Assembly: GCF_023953935.1 (NCBI RefSeq)
Contig: NZ_JAMLIW010000006.1
Location: 144,290-208,289, forward strand
Origin: Thermomonas sp.
GTDB taxonomy: Bacteria > Pseudomonadota > Gammaproteobacteria > Xanthomonadales > Xanthomonadaceae
DNA length: 64,000 bases
Direction of reading: 5' to 3'
A program made the translations under genes and the position numbers. Of the stretch, positions 53,121 through 64,000 are shown piece after piece. Positions within the stretch are counted from its first letter, which is position 1; every line of letters begins with the position of its first letter. The notes under the pieces were generated by a model. The model was not told the origin of the DNA. It made no database searches and saw nothing but the letters and a program-made list of their open reading frames with translations.

Positions 53121-54101
53121 TTGACCGTCGCCAGCACCCGAACGATCGGCAAACCACCCCGGTGGCGACGCGTCCTGCACTGGCTGGTCGGCCTGTCCTT
53201 GGCGCTTGGCCTGTTGTATATCGGTATCCGCCACTATCACGTCGAACATCGCCTCACGGCGTGGTGGCAGGATCCGAAGGCCGAGGATGCGTCGCCTGGC
53301 CAGCTGCAGGCGTATGTGACGGAGATCGACGCGCTGCCGCTGCCCGGCGTGCTGAATCTGTCCGGACTGGCTTGGGATGATGAAGCGGGCCATCTGGTCG
53401 CGGTGCTCAACAAGCCGCCGACCCTGCTGGTCCTGGATCGCGACGGCAACCAGTTGGCGACTTACCGGCTGCGCGATTTCCATGACACCGAAGGCATTGC
53501 GGCGCTGGGCGAAGGCTGGTTTGCGGTAGCCGAGGAGCGCCGGGCGCAGCTCGCGTTTTTCCATGCGCCGGCGGGTCGCGGGAACGGCGAAATCGACCAT
53601 GCCGACGCGGTGATCCTGAATCTCGACCTGCATCCGTCCGATCCCCTGAACAAGGGTTTCGAGGGGCTGGCCTACGACCCCAATGCCGATGTGCTGTTCG
53701 TGGTGCGCGAAGACTCGCCGGTGCGGCTCTACGAAATCGCCGGCCTGGCTGCGCTGCGTCGGACCGGCAGCATGCAGGCGTTGCGCATCCGCGACCGCAG
53801 CAGCCTGCTCGCCAACCTGCGCCCCAGCGATGACCTGTCGTCGGTGGAAGTGGATCCCCACAGCGGTCATTTGCTCCTGCTCAGCGAACGCGGGCAGCGG
53901 CTGACCGAAGTGCGTCGCGATGGCAGCGTCGCCGGCGTGCGGCACTTTGGTGGCGTGCTCGGCGAGGAGACGCCGATGCCGCGGCCCGAGGGCGTGACGA
54001 TGGCGCCGGATCGCAGCCTGTTCGTGGTCAGCGAGCCCAATCTGTTCTACCGATTCGCCCCGGTGACGATGACGTCCGACCACGTCAAGGCGGCGCCGTA
54101 G
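53121..54101 (+). CDS. SdiA-regulated-type beta-propeller protein, membrane anchored
   Basis: A 326-residue protein with one N-terminal membrane helix (about 18-38) and a periplasmic propeller-like domain of the SdiA-regulated/phytase-like family: LSGLAWDDEAGHLVAVLNKP, LRDFHDTEGIAALGEGWFAVAEERR, GFEGLAYDPNADVLFVVRED and PRPEGVTMAPDRSLFVVSEPNLFYRF. The function of the family is unknown. The start is probably TTG 53121 because no ATG or GTG fits before the anchor; the ribosome binding site is poor. Convergent with aroB. Confidence 0.82.
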   Translation: MTVASTRTIGKPPRWRRVLHWLVGLSLALGLLYIGIRHYHVEHRLTAWWQDPKAEDASPGQLQAYVTEIDALPLPGVLNLSGLAWDDEAGHLVAVLNKPPTLLVLDRDGNQLATYRLRDFHDTEGIAALGEGWFAVAEERRAQLAFFHAPAGRGNGEIDHADAVILNLDLHPSDPLNKGFEGLAYDPNADVLFVVREDSPVRLYEIAGLAALRRTGSMQALRIRDRSSLLANLRPSDDLSSVEVDPHSGHLLLLSERGQRLTEVRRDGSVAGVRHFGGVLGEETPMPRPEGVTMAPDRSLFVVSEPNLFYRFAPVTMTSDHVKAAP

Positions 54102-56141: not shown

Positions 56142-58772
56142 TCAGGCGTTCGTCAGCAGCCCGCGCACGCGCGCCAGTTCCGCCTTGTCGCCGCCCGTGG
56201 CTTCCATCGCCTGCTCGGTGAGGCCGTCCAGCAGGTGCCGCGCTTCGTCGCGCTGCCCCTGTTCGATCAATGCTTCCGCCAGCGACAGGCGAAAACTCTG
56301 TGCCGCAGCATTGCTTTCGCCGAATTGCCGGCGCAGGTCGCGTTCGACGTCACGCAGCAAGGTGATGGCGGTACGCCGGTCGCCGCAGTTGTATTCCATC
56401 AGACCCAGGTTGCCGGTTTCGATCAACGCGGCCTGCTTGCCATTACCGTAGCGTGCGGCCATGCGCCGGGCCACGTCGCGCTGGATCGGCAGGGCGGCGG
56501 TGCAATTGCCGGCGCTGTCCTGGATGCTGGCGATGGTGGATCGCAGCGTCAGCGTCTGGTAGTTGTCTGCGCCATAGATGCGTTCCGCAGTGGTGGCGGC
56601 TGCCTGTGCCAGCGGCAGTGCTTCGTCGTACTTGCCTTGGTTGCGCAGTGCGCGCGCCAAGTTCATCTGCACGGTGGCGACACGGTTGCCACCGATCTGC
56701 TTCGCGTCCAGCAGCGGATCGGCCAGAATCGCCCGCATCAGCGCTATCGCCTCGTCGGTTTTGCCGGAACGACGCAAGGCATCCGCCAGATTTTCGCGGA
56801 TCACGATGGCACGCTGCGTATCCGTCGGGAACAGCATGCGCTGCAGGGTGTCCGCGCGCACCCAAGCCGGTAATGCCTGCCGGATCTGCAGTTGCTGCTG
56901 ATGGAAGATGCCGCGTGCGAACGCCGCATCCAGTGCCAGTTCATCGTTGCCCTGCAGGCGTGCGCCGGCCCTGGCGTCGGTTTCGGCAAGCAGCCTGCCC
57001 GCTTCCCTGAAATCGGTGTTGCGGCTGGCGTAGACCAGTGTGCGTACCAGCGCGTAGGCAGTGCGCAGCGTCAGCGTATTGTCCGCGCCGAAGGCGGAGG
57101 TGAAATCGCGCAAGGCCGCGCGCAGTTCCTCCACGCCACGCTCGCCTTGGCCCAACGTGCGCCACGACTGCCCCAACGCCGCGTGGATGCTGCCGCTGAT
57201 CTCCGGTTGGCTGCCAAACTTGCCGTCGACGCCCCGCGAGGCCGCATCCAGCATGTCCCTGATGGTGGGGTCGCGTTCGAACGCACTGCCACCGGGGCTG
57301 ACCGCGCCGATCAGATCGTTGCTGAGGAATTCCACGACCGCGCGAGCCCGCGCTGCCTGCTTTTCGGCGATGTCGCGTTGCTGTTCGGCGATGCGGTGTT
57401 GCTGCTCGCTATGCCACCAGAAGTACAGGCTGCCACCCAGCCCGAGCAGCAGCGCGGCGAACGCCGCAATTGCCCACGGATGCCGCGCGCGGCTGCGTTC
57501 CAGCGCGCTGCGCAATGCGGAAGCGGCGCGTTCGTCCGCTTCGCGCTGCGCAAGTTCGGCGCGGCGCTGCGGCAGGCGACGCAGGCGCTCGGCCAGTTCG
57601 GCGGCGCTGGCGATGCGGCGGGTGGGGTCGGCGTCGGTGGCGTGGGCGATGTCCTCGCGCAGCAGCGGGTCGTCGATGTCGCGCTCCCAGCCCGGCGTCA
57701 GTGGTTTGCGCAGGTCGCCGGCCAGCCATTGATAGAGCAGCATGCCCAGTGCGTAGACGTCGCTGCGCACGGTGGCCGGTTGCCCGGCCAGCAGTTCCGG
57801 GGCCAGGTACAGCGGCGTGCCGGAACTGGTGTCGCCACCCACCTGGGTCAGGGTCATGCCCAGCGCGGTGATGCCCAGTTCGGCCAGCCGCTCGGGCTGC
57901 AACAGACGGCTGCTGCCGAAATCGGTCAGTCGCGTCTGCCAGCCATCGCTGCGCGCGGCGACCAGCACATTGGCCGGTTTCAAGTCCTTGTGCAGGATGC
58001 CCACCGCATGTGCGGCGGCGACGGTTTCAACGATCGGCGTGAAGAATGCGAGCCGCTGCGCGGTGTCCAGCGCGGCCAGCCGTTCGTCCTGTGCCGCCCA
58101 TTCCGTCAGCGACTGCCCGCCGTATTCGCATTCCAGGAAGAACGGCGATGTGGCGAAGTTCCAGTCCAGAAGGCGGACGATGTCCTCGCGCTCGCCCAGA
58201 GTTTCGCGCAGCACTCGCAACAGGGTCGCTTCGCGCTTGATCGACGTCAGGTGTTCGCCGTCCAGCGCGAACTTGAACACGCGCGTGTCGCGGCTGCGCG
58301 GGTGCCGAGCCAGCCACACCTCGCTGCCGAGCGTGCGCCCCAGTTGTCGTTCCAGCACGAACTGCGCCCGACCCGGCACCGGCTCGCCGGCAGCGAGTGC
58401 CAGCGGGCTGGAAGGTGCGGCCCCCACTGCCATGCGTTCTACCGGCCCGTCGAAGCGGTAGCCGATACGGGGCACGGTGGCGATGCGGTCTTCCTCGCCC
58501 GTGCCCAGTGCCTTGCGCAGCTTGCCCACGGCGGTGGAGAGGACGTTGTCCACCGTGACCCGCCCGGCCCAGACGGTATCGAACAGCTCGTCCTTCGTGA
58601 CCACTTCGCCGGCATGCCGCAACAGCAGCGACAGCACTTCCAGTGGTTTGTGCTCCATCTCCATCGGCAGCCCGGCCACGCGCAACTCGCGGCGAGCCTC
58701 GTCGAACTCGACCTCGCCGAAGCGCCAGCGATAGAGGGCGTGTCCCGGATGTGGAGCGGGGGGCGACGTCAT
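56142..58772 (-). CDS. Winged-helix DNA-binding Ser/Thr kinase with TM and TPR domains
   Basis: An 876-residue fusion. Residues about 12-110: OmpR/CadC-type winged helix (FDEARRELRVAGLPMEMEHK, LEVLSLLLRHAGEVVTKDEL, VDNVLSTAVGKLRKALG, RIATVPRIGYRFDG). About 135-420: protein kinase with a weakened glycine loop (LGRTLGSEVWLARH), lysine in RVFKFAL, HKDLKPANVLV (HKD instead of HRD), DFGSSRLL and GTPLYLAPELL. One membrane helix (about 430-452), coiled coil, then TPR-like repeats (about 500-870). This puts DNA binding and kinase activity on the cytoplasmic side of a membrane receptor. No Shine-Dalgarno sequence before ATG 58772. Eleven-bp direct repeats upstream are a likely operator. Confidence 0.88.
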   Translation of the reverse strand: MTSPPAPHPGHALYRWRFGEVEFDEARRELRVAGLPMEMEHKPLEVLSLLLRHAGEVVTKDELFDTVWAGRVTVDNVLSTAVGKLRKALGTGEEDRIATVPRIGYRFDGPVERMAVGAAPSSPLALAAGEPVPGRAQFVLERQLGRTLGSEVWLARHPRSRDTRVFKFALDGEHLTSIKREATLLRVLRETLGEREDIVRLLDWNFATSPFFLECEYGGQSLTEWAAQDERLAALDTAQRLAFFTPIVETVAAAHAVGILHKDLKPANVLVAARSDGWQTRLTDFGSSRLLQPERLAELGITALGMTLTQVGGDTSSGTPLYLAPELLAGQPATVRSDVYALGMLLYQWLAGDLRKPLTPGWERDIDDPLLREDIAHATDADPTRRIASAAELAERLRRLPQRRAELAQREADERAASALRSALERSRARHPWAIAAFAALLLGLGGSLYFWWHSEQQHRIAEQQRDIAEKQAARARAVVEFLSNDLIGAVSPGGSAFERDPTIRDMLDAASRGVDGKFGSQPEISGSIHAALGQSWRTLGQGERGVEELRAALRDFTSAFGADNTLTLRTAYALVRTLVYASRNTDFREAGRLLAETDARAGARLQGNDELALDAAFARGIFHQQQLQIRQALPAWVRADTLQRMLFPTDTQRAIVIRENLADALRRSGKTDEAIALMRAILADPLLDAKQIGGNRVATVQMNLARALRNQGKYDEALPLAQAAATTAERIYGADNYQTLTLRSTIASIQDSAGNCTAALPIQRDVARRMAARYGNGKQAALIETGNLGLMEYNCGDRRTAITLLRDVERDLRRQFGESNAAAQSFRLSLAEALIEQGQRDEARHLLDGLTEQAMEATGGDKAELARVRGLLTNA

Positions 58773-58819
58773 GCCTGAATACTGGCAAACAGCGGCACTT
58801 GTGGCAAATCTGCAGGGCG

Positions 58820-58841
58820 CTTGAAGGTTTCTTGAAGGTTC
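58820..58841. promoter_or_regulatory. Tandem 11-bp direct repeats, candidate winged-helix operator
   Basis: CTTGAAGGTTT (58820-58830) is followed directly by CTTGAAGGTTC (58831-58841). Eleven-bp direct repeats are the usual binding geometry of OmpR/PhoB-type winged helices. The site is about 48 bases before the winged-helix kinase start and in the shared divergent region with the gene at 58996. Confidence 0.6.
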
Positions 58842-58995
58842 CGTGAGGACACAGTGTGGCCGTGCGATCAGCATTGCCCTTGTCTGGGCGGCTGTCGATG
58901 TGCGGTACACGAGCCGGATCGGGCATTCGCTGGGCGGATGCTTGCGGCGGCGATGAAGCGCTTTTCGGGTTCCCGGGTGATTGCAGGAGGACACG

Positions 58996-60099
58996 ATGAA
59001 GAACGGGGTTTCGTACTGGCGGATGGTCTGGCCCGAAAGCGGCCCGCTGCTCGCCGGCGTGGGCGGCATCATCGGGCTGTTGAGCGATGTCGGCAGCTTC
59101 GTGGGCGACATCTCCGCGCCGTGGGTGTGGGCACCCGTGGTCCTGGGCCTGCTGCTGGCCGTGCTGCTGTTCGCGCCGTGCCGGAACCGGGTGGTGGCGG
59201 GTCTGCCGGAACAGCAGGACGCCGCGTACGACTGCCGTATCTGCAACGTGTTTCGGGTCGGGCTGTTCGCCTGCCTGGTCTGCGCGATGCTGGCGCTGGC
59301 CGGGCAGGGCGCCACCGCCACCGAGAAGATCGGCACCCAGCTGGGCCTGATCCAGCGTGGGGTCGAAGACGTGAAGCGCGACACCGCCGTGATCCGCGAA
59401 GACACCGGTGCGGTCCGGGAGGCGTTGTCGGGTAGCGAATTGGTGAGGGATCCGAGTACCGCAGAGGAGCGGTTCCACAACGCCTGGGTGCTGAACATGC
59501 AGCGGGGCGACAATGCCGGCGCGTGGGAACAGCTGCAGGCGCTGTATCGCGAGCATGCGCCCAACAAGCTGGACGCCGCCGAGCTGTACCGGAATGTCGG
59601 CAAGGCGTTCCTCGGGCGCGACGAACTGCTGGCGAACATGGTCGAGATCGGTCGCCAGAAACGCGATGCGGCGATGCTGGTCATCGCCGCCCGCAACGAA
59701 GCCGATCCCGATGCCGCGCAGGCATTGCGCGACGAGGCGCGCGCCATCGATCCCGATCTGCCCTTCGCGTACTGGGACGTCGGCGACTTTGCCAGGCAGT
59801 TCGGCGGTGCGGGCGCCAACGGCGACGCCGGGAAGCAGCTGGCACATTACCGCGCCGTGGTGGCGGGCCACGAGAAGTTCCTGGAAGTCGCCGCGCGTGG
59901 GCCGGTGGCCCGCTATTTCTACCGTCCCCAGTACCAGGCCGATTACGACGACCTGGCGCGCAGCCAGCTCCAGAGTGCACGCAGCATGGTCGAGTCCTCG
60001 GAAAAGATGGCCGGCTATCTGCGTGCGAGCCGCGGCCAGACCTACGAAGACGCGACGCGGCGCATGCGGGCCATGGGCCAGGGCGGCAAATCGCAATGA
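58996..60099 (+). CDS. Uncharacterised membrane protein with cysteine motifs and helical C-terminal domain
   Basis: A 367-residue protein I do not recognise. Three hydrophobic segments (about 17-38, 42-62, 85-105) with CRIC and CLVC cysteine pairs around the third. Next comes a coiled-coil-like stretch with a repeated pattern (GVEDVKRDTAVIREDTGAVRE, about 118-140), then a soluble helical, TPR-like domain (about 150-365). AGGAGG precedes ATG 58996. It is the first gene of a rightward series opposite the winged-helix kinase. The stop overlaps an ATG (ATGA at 60096) of a short cysteine-containing frame that runs into the next gene. Confidence 0.8.
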   Translation: MKNGVSYWRMVWPESGPLLAGVGGIIGLLSDVGSFVGDISAPWVWAPVVLGLLLAVLLFAPCRNRVVAGLPEQQDAAYDCRICNVFRVGLFACLVCAMLALAGQGATATEKIGTQLGLIQRGVEDVKRDTAVIREDTGAVREALSGSELVRDPSTAEERFHNAWVLNMQRGDNAGAWEQLQALYREHAPNKLDAAELYRNVGKAFLGRDELLANMVEIGRQKRDAAMLVIAARNEADPDAAQALRDEARAIDPDLPFAYWDVGDFARQFGGAGANGDAGKQLAHYRAVVAGHEKFLEVAARGPVARYFYRPQYQADYDDLARSQLQSARSMVESSEKMAGYLRASRGQTYEDATRRMRAMGQGGKSQ

Positions 60100-60263: not shown

Positions 60264-60569
60264 ATGAATCGTCTGAAACTTGCACTTGTCGCCTTGCTGG
60301 TCACGCTCCTGAGTGCATGCGGCGATGGCATGACCGGTACCTATACGGGCGGTTTGGCGGAAGACCAGGTCCTGACCTTTCACGGCAACGGCAAAGCCAC
60401 GCAAGAGACTGCCGGCATGGAGGTGCAGCTGGAGTACGAGGTGGATGGCGACAGGATCAAGCTGCGCAACCCGGATCAGCCCGGCACCACGCTCGTGTTG
60501 ACGCGCAAGGATGCCGACACCCTGACGGGCGGGCCGATGGGCGTGCTGGAATTCAAGCGCAAGCAGTGA
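60264..60569 (+). CDS. Small lipoprotein
   Basis: A 101-residue protein with a lipoprotein signal: positively charged MNRLK, hydrophobic core and lipobox LSAC with Cys at residue 19. The mature part (GTYTGGLAEDQVLTFHGNG, then GMEVQLEYEVDGDRIKLR) looks like a small beta-sheet domain. AAGGAGA precedes ATG 60264. The same frame is open back to an ATG at 60096, but the lipobox fixes the start. Function unknown; second gene in the uncharacterised series. Confidence 0.82.
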   Translation: MNRLKLALVALLVTLLSACGDGMTGTYTGGLAEDQVLTFHGNGKATQETAGMEVQLEYEVDGDRIKLRNPDQPGTTLVLTRKDADTLTGGPMGVLEFKRKQ

Positions 60570-60609: not shown

Positions 60610-61659
60610 ATGAAGACCAAAACGAGTACAGGAGTGGGGATTCTGATGCTGGCTGCGATGCAGGCCAGTGCGCAATCGTCGACCGCCGCGCTGCCAACGG
60701 CCGCGCTGAAGGCATGGCAGACGCATGCCCGCTCCTATTGTGCCGAGGTCGAGGAACGGTACGTGGGCGCACGGTTCGCCCCATTGCCGGCCAATGGCAT
60801 CAGCGGTGATGCGCTGCCGGCCGGTGCGGGGCGTTATCTGGCTGCCGACTTCAACGGCGACAGCAAGCCGGACTATGTCTTCGCCACGCCCAATGGCGGT
60901 TGCGCCGGCCATAACGAGGGGCGCAATGGCCCGGAACTCATCATCGAGTTCGTACTGTCGACGGGTGACGGCTACGTCCCGGACGCGCAGCAAGCAGAGG
61001 ATGGTGTCTCGTTCACCGTGGCCAGGCCATTCCTCAGCCCGGCCTGGCTGCAGCGCCGTGGCAATGTCGATGTGCTGCGTTACGAAACCGGCAGCGTCGG
61101 CGCCGGCCGCTGCGGGCCATTGGCAACCGAAGTGGTCTTGGGCTGGAATGGCCGCAATGTCGACGTACTGGAGCAGTACAACGCCAGGCGACAGTTGGTG
61201 GACGCGGAAGGTTGCGCAGTGAGGCCGGCCAGGGCCGCTGCGGGCGCACGGGGGAAGCCGGCTGCCGCAGCGATTCCCGCGAGCATCCCCCTGGCTGTCG
61301 GCTATTACGCCTACGTGGAAGGCACGTTCTCGACCTGTGCCAAGCCGGTAGTCGATCCGTGGTACTTCGACGGCAAGCGCTTCTGGGAGAAATCGGATTT
61401 CACCGATCCACGGCATGAATTCAGTGCCGAAGCCCTGCGCTGGGAGATGGTGTCCGGCAACCGTTTCCGCATCACCTATCGCAGTCGCGACGAAGATGGC
61501 AACTGGGAGCGGACGCCGTCGGTCAATGAATACGTGATCACCGGACCGGATGCGTTCACCTATGTCGGCGTCGTGGGGCAGCGCATGGGCAGCAGCGAGA
61601 AACATCAGCGCTGCCCGAACCTTCCCGCCAGCATGCGGTTCTTCCGGCCCAAGAGGTAG
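60610..61659 (+). CDS. Uncharacterised secreted protein
   Basis: A 349-residue protein with a signal peptide (about 1-22, cleavage after ASA-Q). An early stretch, RYLAADFNGDSKPDYVFATP, resembles an FG-GAP/EF-hand-like calcium loop (DFNGDSKPDYV). Six or so cysteines could form disulfides. The C-terminal part (DPWYFDGKRFWEKSDFTDP, NRFRITYRSRDEDGNWERTP) is beta-rich. GAGGAG precedes ATG 60610. No family recognised. Confidence 0.8.
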   Translation: MKTKTSTGVGILMLAAMQASAQSSTAALPTAALKAWQTHARSYCAEVEERYVGARFAPLPANGISGDALPAGAGRYLAADFNGDSKPDYVFATPNGGCAGHNEGRNGPELIIEFVLSTGDGYVPDAQQAEDGVSFTVARPFLSPAWLQRRGNVDVLRYETGSVGAGRCGPLATEVVLGWNGRNVDVLEQYNARRQLVDAEGCAVRPARAAAGARGKPAAAAIPASIPLAVGYYAYVEGTFSTCAKPVVDPWYFDGKRFWEKSDFTDPRHEFSAEALRWEMVSGNRFRITYRSRDEDGNWERTPSVNEYVITGPDAFTYVGVVGQRMGSSEKHQRCPNLPASMRFFRPKR

Positions 61660-61730: not shown

Positions 61731-63224
61731 ATGGTATCGGGACTTGCGAAACGACGGTTGCCCATGTTCTGGGTGCTGAGGAACAAGGTGGAAGCGCCGC
61801 GCGTCTGGAAGATTAGCGGCTTGCTCGTGGGCGTGTGCCTCCTGCTGTCCACCGTGCTGCTGTTCCCGGGCAACGCATGGGCTCAGTCCGAGCCGAACAC
61901 GGACTCACCGGCGTGGTTGGCCGCCTTCCCTTCGCCGGACAAGGTGCGTGCCGATGTGGTCGCGAGTGCAGATGATGCAGAGCCGGAAGAGATCGAAGGG
62001 CGCGTTGCAGGGCGTCTGGAGACGTTGGCGAATGCCTTGTACAACTCGTGGGCGAGCGGCCATTCGAACCCCGAGACCGGTCTGCCGGTGCCTGGTATCG
62101 AATGGGCGCCGGCGGAGGCGAAGCGGATTCACGACGCATATCAGGCCGCGTACAACGCAATTGACTTGCACGCTCGCGACATGTACCCGAAGTGCGGATT
62201 TTTCAGGAGACTCCTGCAGCTCACCGGCATCGCGAATGCGTGCAAACGTCTCGCCTACAAGTTGGCCAGGGAGGAGAGTGACGGCACATTCACGAACAAC
62301 GAACAGGCGGCGGCGCAAATCGCGACGCAATATTTCCCGCCGGAGATGCAGGAGTTGTTCATCGAGGCAAGCGGGGGGAGCGGGCGGTACATGTCACGGC
62401 ATCAGGTCAACGTCGCGAAGGCGAACAGGGATGCCGAACGTGCCGGCGAACGATCCACTGCGCGATGGGCGAGTGCCCGGAATGGCATGGAGGGGCGCTG
62501 GGTCCCCGGCGGCGCGTTGGTGCTGATCGGGATTGGCTGGCTGCTCATTTTTCTGGACGCACGGCCCCGAAAGGCGCCGGATCCGCAGAAGAGCAACAAG
62601 ATTTCGGATATTGCAGATCTGGCGATCTTCGACAAACGGGGGCAAATTGTCGGGACACACGAACGGACCAGCCTGCACACCACGACGACGTCGAGCACCA
62701 GCGGTGGCAGCGGCTACATCCATCCGACCTACGGCGGGCATGTGTCCGCACCGAGCACGACGACAACCACATCCACCACCTCAAGGCACCACCAAACCTT
62801 CTTCATCCGCAAGGAGGATGGCGTCGAGTTGGAGGTGGAATTCATCGACCTCGATTTTCCCGTCCGCGATGGCGCCCACGTCGCCATCGTTTACGCAGGT
62901 GACCGATGGTCGAATCGCGGCTATCCGGTTGCGGCCGTCAATCTCGATACCGGTCGCTGGGAGATGGCCGGCAGCCGGGTTGACTGGATTGTCATGGGCA
63001 AGCCGACGGCGCAGCTCTGGATGTGGATCATGCTGGTGCTGCTTGCACGTGTCGCGATGGCGTTTGTCGCGGGCACGTCGTTCATGGTGGGGATTGTGCT
63101 CGGACTGGCGATCGCGATTTTCCTCGCGTGGCGCTGGTGGCGTAAAAGAGCCTTGGCGGAGCTGAAAACGACGGTTGTCTCCCGTATCCGTGCGCATGCC
63201 CAGTCGCTCGTGAAGTCGCGCTGA
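61731..63224 (+). CDS. Uncharacterised multi-domain membrane protein
   Basis: A 497-residue protein. N-terminal signal/anchor (about 25-52, ending NAWAQ), a helical presumably periplasmic domain (about 60-245), a membrane helix (GALVLIGIGWLLIFLDA, about 258-276), then a long Ser/Thr-rich stretch (TTTTSSTSGGSG and STTTTTSTTS) around a cytoplasmic beta domain with DGVELEVEFIDLDFPVRDG, then a membrane hairpin (about 425-470) and a basic tail. ATG 61731 is chosen because AAGGGGAA precedes it; ATG 61713 has none. The Ser/Thr-rich stretch could be a kinase target (inference). Last of the series. Confidence 0.78.
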   Translation: MVSGLAKRRLPMFWVLRNKVEAPRVWKISGLLVGVCLLLSTVLLFPGNAWAQSEPNTDSPAWLAAFPSPDKVRADVVASADDAEPEEIEGRVAGRLETLANALYNSWASGHSNPETGLPVPGIEWAPAEAKRIHDAYQAAYNAIDLHARDMYPKCGFFRRLLQLTGIANACKRLAYKLAREESDGTFTNNEQAAAQIATQYFPPEMQELFIEASGGSGRYMSRHQVNVAKANRDAERAGERSTARWASARNGMEGRWVPGGALVLIGIGWLLIFLDARPRKAPDPQKSNKISDIADLAIFDKRGQIVGTHERTSLHTTTTSSTSGGSGYIHPTYGGHVSAPSTTTTTSTTSRHHQTFFIRKEDGVELEVEFIDLDFPVRDGAHVAIVYAGDRWSNRGYPVAAVNLDTGRWEMAGSRVDWIVMGKPTAQLWMWIMLVLLARVAMAFVAGTSFMVGIVLGLAIAIFLAWRWWRKRALAELKTTVVSRIRAHAQSLVKSR

Positions 63225-63941: not shown

Positions 63942-64000
63942 ATTACGAAGCGTCGCGGGTTGCCCGCTGGGGTTCGCCGCTCAAAACTCCGCTCCAGCTT

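Follow-up and report, generated by a model that had tools for sequence, protein, structure and literature searches.

A predicted CadC-like membrane regulator with a built-in Ser/Thr kinase and a candidate private operator beside divergent envelope-type genes in Thermomonas

The window, a stretch of 64,000 nucleotides from Thermomonas sp., encodes a single protein that joins an OmpR/CadC-type winged helix, a Hanks-type kinase, one membrane helix and a TPR region (Table 1). We consider it probable, with some reserve, that this fusion is a one-component transmembrane regulator of CadC-like type that contains its own Ser/Thr kinase and acts on its own divergent envelope locus. At the level of sequence, the architecture, the conserved catalytic residues, the operator together with its change with the recognition helix, and the recurring divergent neighbors are established.

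Table 1. Features of the fusion gene, its predicted operator and the divergent genes (window positions)
Feature	Position	Strand	Basis or remark
Whole gene, 876 aa + stop: winged helix, kinase, TM, TPR	56142..58772	-	Translation, Pfam
OmpR/CadC-type winged helix, residues 14-108; recognition helix ~71-89	58449..58733	-	Pfam Trans_reg_C 37-107, alignment
Hanks-type kinase domain, residues 134-410	57543..58373	-	Pfam Pkinase 140-354, alignments, Foldseek
Kinase motif residues K167, E181, H261-K262-D263, N268, D284-F285-G286, P325-E326			Alignments
Single hydrophobic (membrane) helix, residues 432-453	57414..57479	-	Sequence; charge bias before helix
C-terminal helical repeats (TPR), residues 504-876, with C757 and C796; likely non-cytoplasmic	56145..57263	-	Pfam TPR, model, cysteine pair
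Predicted operator, three 7-bp direct repeats (58842-58848, 58831-58837, 58820-58826), 11-bp period, ending 47 bp before the start codon	58820..58848	-	Upstream alignments, genome pattern scans
Divergent gene A, membrane protein, family without match	58996..60099	+	Without match in Pfam, NCBIfam and PADLOC
Divergent gene B, small lipoprotein (lipobox by eye)	60264..60569	+	Weak sub-cut-off DUF5640 match; opposite strand in each of 10 loci with B
Divergent gene C, exported protein (signal by eye), without family match	60610..61659	+	Shared-ORF comparison
Divergent gene D, membrane protein, without family match, start uncertain	61731..63224	+	Shared-ORF comparison

Translation of 58772-56142 on the minus strand gave a stop-free reading frame of 876 aa. 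Pfam assigned Trans_reg_C to residues 37-107 (57.1 bits against a cut-off of 26.2), Pkinase to residues 140-354 (83.8 against 31.7) and TPR_12 to residues 698-768 (55.9 against 30.1); the HMM search for Trans_reg_C and Pkinase in one protein, which a preliminary description of this DNA had proposed, thus returned both above cut-off. A phmmer search against PDB chains aligned residues 29-111 with CadC (5ju7, E 1.5e-10) and the middle part with many Ser/Thr kinases. The AlphaFold2 model (mean pLDDT 78.3, pTM 0.45) displays a winged helix, a kinase fold, a long helix spanning the membrane stretch and helical repeats from about residue 504; the activation segment (residues 287-332) scores below 50, and the packing of the domains is unreliable because of the low pTM. 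The top three Foldseek matches of the modeled kinase part are all PknB of M. tuberculosis, in agreement with the kinase fold that the same description had wished to see predicted. Its claim that winged helix, kinase, membrane helix and TPRs lie in one chain is upheld. Upstream of the chosen ATG the frame stays open for 358 codons, and among the matches listed, the alignments of 15 full-length relatives (96 to 31% identity) all begin within 14 residues of this ATG. The 2.59 Mb Thermomonas genome has 10 Trans_reg_C and 11 Pkinase matches, and the fusion gene alone is found on both lists.

Alignment of the kinase domain revealed the catalytic Lys, Glu, HxD Asp, Asn, DFG and APE in the window protein. 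Among 63 distinct fusion proteins, one of which (L086) is a fragment, the catalytic Lys, Glu, HxD Asp, Asn and DFG Asp are all kept in 59. Three kinases are degenerate, namely L131 (HQS/NLG) and L138 (HRN/EFG) of genome G077 and L132 (HQD/GLG) of genome G033, with the remaining architecture retained. The middle residue of HxD is Lys in 56 and Arg in three of the 63 proteins. HKD in place of HRD had been taken as a sign that the enzyme may be tuned or partly inactive, a suggestion that was not borne out: by itself HKD does not indicate partial inactivity, because most of the family has it and 59 of the 63 proteins keep the other catalytic residues. The glycine-rich loop, also described as weak, is indeed so in the window protein, where only the first Gly of GxGxxG is in register, but this is no peculiarity of that protein, as the loop is weak family-wide (Gly at the first position in 39, the second in 12 and the third in 11 of the 63).

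The weak loop throughout the family and the three degenerate kinases count against a role for the kinase, and they favor a reading in which a CadC/ToxR-like regulator uses its kinase domain as a nucleotide-binding, allosteric or scaffolding part, with no role for phosphotransfer in the switch. We regard this as unlikely, given that all five checked catalytic residues persist in the great majority of the proteins over great sequence distance, and we retain as the preferred reading the regulator whose built-in kinase would be active.

In a tree of 98 kinase domains, which is a quick one with SH-aLRT support only, long branches and a midpoint root, the winged-helix-headed and cyclase-headed kinases and two partial frames are divided from 17 other kinases by a branch with a support of 100. 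The nearest kinase domains outside the family belong to cyclase-kinase fusions near the TOMM kinase/cyclase (TIGR03903), some of which have TPRs as well; they carry a cyclase head where the window protein has its winged helix. The window protein itself scores 73.3 bits with TIGR03903, far below the cut-off of 705.75. Three frames (L023:1123-3624, L024:604-3960 and L025:514-3960) each contain a winged helix, a cyclase-like part, a kinase and TPRs; their assignment as plain cyclase-kinases was rejected once Pfam and a profile had revealed the winged helix too. As these frames join both heads to one kinase and TPR region, their sequences suggest that winged helix and cyclase have been exchanged on a shared kinase-TPR chassis. 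A defense system, considered for the likeness to the models of the anti-phage kinases MAD6 and PD-T4-6, was rejected: nothing exceeded its cut-off (MAD6, NF047741, 82.7 against 460 bits), defense neighbors were absent, and PADLOC yielded no match for six neighbor proteins.

In 57 of 62 relatives, Lys and Arg are more numerous in the 20 residues preceding the membrane helix than in the 20 following it; two relatives have equal numbers. The CadC/ToxR-type arrangement, a single membrane helix that leaves the DNA-binding part in the cytoplasm, is accordingly a prediction from the single hydrophobic stretch and this charge bias. Of the 63 proteins, 11 have both Cys757 and Cys796 in the TPR region, 51 have neither and one has a single one of them, counts that are inflated by sequence relatedness; this pattern would suit a disulfide bond on the non-cytoplasmic side. 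Charge bias and cysteine pair both point to a TPR region beyond the membrane, outside the cytoplasm, with the winged helix inside.

Upstream of the fusion gene, an alignment of five upstream regions contains a sole conserved block, around which the DNA aligns poorly. On the minus strand it reads CCTCACG-GAAC-CTTCAAG-AAAC-CTTCAAG (58848-58820), with the repeats oriented in the direction of the kinase gene. The two-repeat core occurs once in the 2.59 Mb genome at up to one mismatch. A degenerate pattern of the operator was found in six of 99 genomes, at one site each and always upstream of the fusion gene; since ten upstream regions served to derive the pattern, it is bound to occur in them, and what counts as the result is its absence elsewhere. 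A motif-free triple-repeat score reached at least 17 at the 11-bp period in 17 of 59 upstream regions, whereas 22 other spacings each gave at most two such regions. After the ten loci sharing one box had been left out, the count was eight of 49 (at most two at other spacings). Control windows elsewhere in the same loci attained 17 in 0.5% and 0.17% of cases. The later set behaved alike (13 of 35 loci, at most two at other spacings), and in the first set 42 of the 59 regions fell below 17 and 34 below 15. The box is noncoding, because its phase relative to the kinase frame in L040 and L041 differs from that in the other eight loci, and in L040 it lies beyond the open frame. A promoter and terminator scan of 58700-59150 found neither, and a general repeat search of 58740-59010 turned up a single unrelated 11-nt pair but not the operator. 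DNA binding from the membrane, as first proposed from the sequence, now gains support from this conserved predicted operator.

The genes on the other side of the operator form a recurring, envelope-type set. Comparison of ORFs common to the loci identified families confined to the upstream side and the opposite strand: E (12 loci), B (9), F (8), C (7) and D (6). By eye these are lipoproteins, exported or membrane proteins, and they recur across classes of Proteobacteria. Among 922 distant pairs (kinase identity below 50%; drawn from the 46 of 60 loci whose two flanks each measure 3 kb or more), 41 have an upstream family in common, one a downstream family and 10 a family crosswise. None of 10 neighbor proteins passed a Pfam cut-off, nor did B, C and D of the window; of the five divergent genes nearest the box, two encode OmpA, one ankyrin/MORN and one DUF11 domains, and one is without a domain. 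Of the ten loci with the box, eight have a plausible divergent start, placed by eye, some 54-147 bp away from it; the distance is about 400 bp in L050, and the start is unclear in L120. Families recurring downstream (aroK/aroB/hemE-like, named by eye) were judged to be plain synteny, because they are shared mostly by near relatives. In the closest relative, the first divergent gene (L039:4117-5838, minus strand) is lipoprotein-like with MORN and ankyrin repeats, at the place of gene A in the window. The window also encodes an SdiA-regulated domain protein at 53121-54101 on the plus strand (PF06977, E 1.5e-59). Its position 64000 is the contig end (base 208289), so that the divergent side stops there. 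The operator and the divergent envelope genes are additions to the preliminary description, and the likely target is the new part.

The operator could instead serve the fusion gene alone, if the kinase mainly targets other proteins, the winged helix only autoregulates its own level and the divergent genes are passengers. The repeats pointing along the kinase gene and ending close before its start, the single site per genome and the varying cargo all speak for this; for instance, genome G016 has the fusion and a relative of gene A, which among the loci searched is found only there, and lacks B and C. We nevertheless find it rather improbable, since the divergent families recur across Proteobacteria classes, upstream and on the opposite strand, and since gene C occurs in three of 99 genomes, beside the fusion gene every time. 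In the same genomes, gene B gave four strong cases beside the fusion gene and two weak ones elsewhere (G065 and G053), and one E protein was found in its own genome, apart from one weak hit in broken frames. Control of the divergent locus by the fusion thus stays the preferred reading.

The repeat differs among relatives together with the recognition helix. With helix classes and repeat patterns picked by eye on the first set, class A helices ([NH]VL[SA]TA) go with CTTCAAG within two mismatches in 10 of 10 loci, class B (VEGSL or VDGSL) with TCTAAAG in seven of 10, class C ([DE][NH]VLxNA) with the permissive pattern CTAACG in nine of nine, and class D (KVLxNA) with GGTAACG in five of seven. 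In the later set of 35 loci, the helix was assignable in 27, and the predicted repeat was found within two mismatches in 26 of these (A, 17 of 17; C, three of three; D, six of seven), where the permissive C pattern also matches all 17 A loci and six of the seven D loci. When four near-copies of earlier loci were dropped, the A repeat occurred in 13 of 13 class A loci versus one of 18 others, and the D repeat in six of seven class D loci versus one of 24 others; relatedness of the sequences inflates all counts on helix and operator, and the p-values of this last comparison take no account of it. In the first set the predicted repeat is missing from two class D loci (L129, L130) and one class B locus (L071), and in the later set from the class D locus L191. 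Among the eight loci outside the assigned classes, the near-A helix of L181 goes with the A repeat, the near-D helix of L190 with the D repeat within two mismatches, and L177 has a CAAACG repeat as in L123; the other five (L156, L157, L173, L174 and L189, the last with a near-A helix) have none of the four patterns within two mismatches. By these comparisons, the operator repeat has changed together with the recognition helix across the family.

This change argues against the view that the repeats are bound by a different response regulator of the OmpR/PhoB family, one controlling the fusion gene. Such a site would have the right geometry, as PhoB/PhoP-type operators likewise consist of 7-bp direct repeats with a 4-bp spacer, a geometry given for PhoP of M. 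tuberculosis in the accessible part of PMC4832192, and nine other Trans_reg_C matches in the genome could supply the regulator. The window operator differs from that type in its lineage-specific repeat, its three copies and, in the clade tested, its occurrence at just one place in a genome; with no site in 93 of 99 relatives and a repeat that follows the helix of the fusion itself, another regulator is very improbable, and binding by the fusion's own winged helix is the reading that we keep.

The fusion is a patchily distributed family and no one-off. Carriers include Pseudoxanthomonas, Luteimonas, Rhodanobacter, Nevskiaceae, Bowmanella, Rubrivivax, Hyphomonas, Sphingopyxis, Novosphingobium and Acidobacteriota MAGs; a MAG labeled Verrucomicrobia (L047) adjoins a Nevskia in the kinase-domain tree and may be misbinned. 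A search of 99 genomes of relatives gave matches at E ≤ 0.001 in all of them, mostly other kinases, and full-length relatives with the winged helix in 15 genomes among the matches listed. At E ≤ 1e-50, a few matches spanning the kinase part only, 55 of 395 same-family, 54 of 398 same-order and four of 369 same-class genomes have a match. The gene is accessory, because only five of 25 genomes of its own genus have such a match. Genome G077 holds several fusion paralogues (L131, L136, L137, L138 and further places), some of them in reading frames 1287 to 1523 aa long. Winged helix and kinase share one open frame in 42 of 80 loci kept from a scan of named genomes and in 35 of 36 loci fetched later, which refutes the joining of two genes by a sequencing or assembly error, the ground on which the preliminary description would have fallen; nothing was found in its favor, and its chance is negligible.

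To our knowledge, CadC and ToxR have no kinase or other phosphotransfer domain. CadC/ToxR-type regulators have the same N-terminal OmpR-type winged helix, one membrane helix and a C-terminal part beyond it, whereas the fusion adds a Hanks kinase between winged helix and membrane. With its Pkinase match of 83.8 bits, the window protein departs from a type without kinase; the fusion would work like CadC yet fails the plain CadC definition, because it carries a kinase. Hanks-type receptor kinases such as PknB share the kinase motifs and the order of kinase, membrane helix and sensor, and Ser/Thr kinases with TPRs (described in the accessible part of PMC1262709) share the TPRs; the fusion differs from Hanks-type receptor kinases in the winged helix in front, the weak glycine loop and HKD. 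In the accessible parts of PMC4601284 and PMC1262709, the Ser/Thr kinases of PknH-EmbR and AfsK-AfsR act with an OmpR-type regulator as two separate proteins, whereas here kinase and OmpR-type domain share one membrane chain. By analogy, these two pairs appear to be the nearest functional parallels in the accessible parts of PMC1262709, PMC10269533, PMC4601284 and PMC1183210, where no winged helix-Hanks kinase fusion is described; the available text of PMC10269533, a survey of CadC/ToxR-type regulators, mentions histidine-kinase hybrids only. The literature searched (open-licence papers, without supplements) yielded no description of such a fusion either.

We propose that the intracellular winged helix would bind head to tail on its private operator, with 7-bp repeats every 11 bp, and, as the operator lies between its own gene and the divergent envelope-protein genes, would control that locus. 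The part beyond the membrane, the TPR region, would probably sense either a state of the envelope or the lipoproteins encoded at the same locus. The kinase would be the likely coupler, autophosphorylating the activation segment (conserved Thr302, Thr307 and Thr319) and/or the winged helix (conserved Thr59 and Thr99), and this autophosphorylation would set DNA binding. Topology, signal, autophosphorylation and the choice between activation and repression belong to this model. In its fullest form, which we put forward tentatively as a fair way short of probable, the family is a self-contained Ser/Thr phospho-switch on DNA: a membrane protein that monitors the envelope, undergoes autophosphorylation and recognizes an operator of its own, the operator code having changed with the helix across Proteobacteria and Acidobacteriota, and the kinase-TPR chassis having exchanged winged-helix and nucleotide cyclase heads.

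In two-component systems the sensor kinase and the DNA-binding regulator are separate, and regulators of the CadC type have no kinase. A single membrane protein with both a DNA-binding domain and a Ser/Thr kinase would be another way of coupling envelope to transcription. The regulator reading is directly testable, because the operator and the candidate target genes are now named, and the recurring divergent genes, most of which lack a Pfam match among those scanned, gain a candidate regulator.
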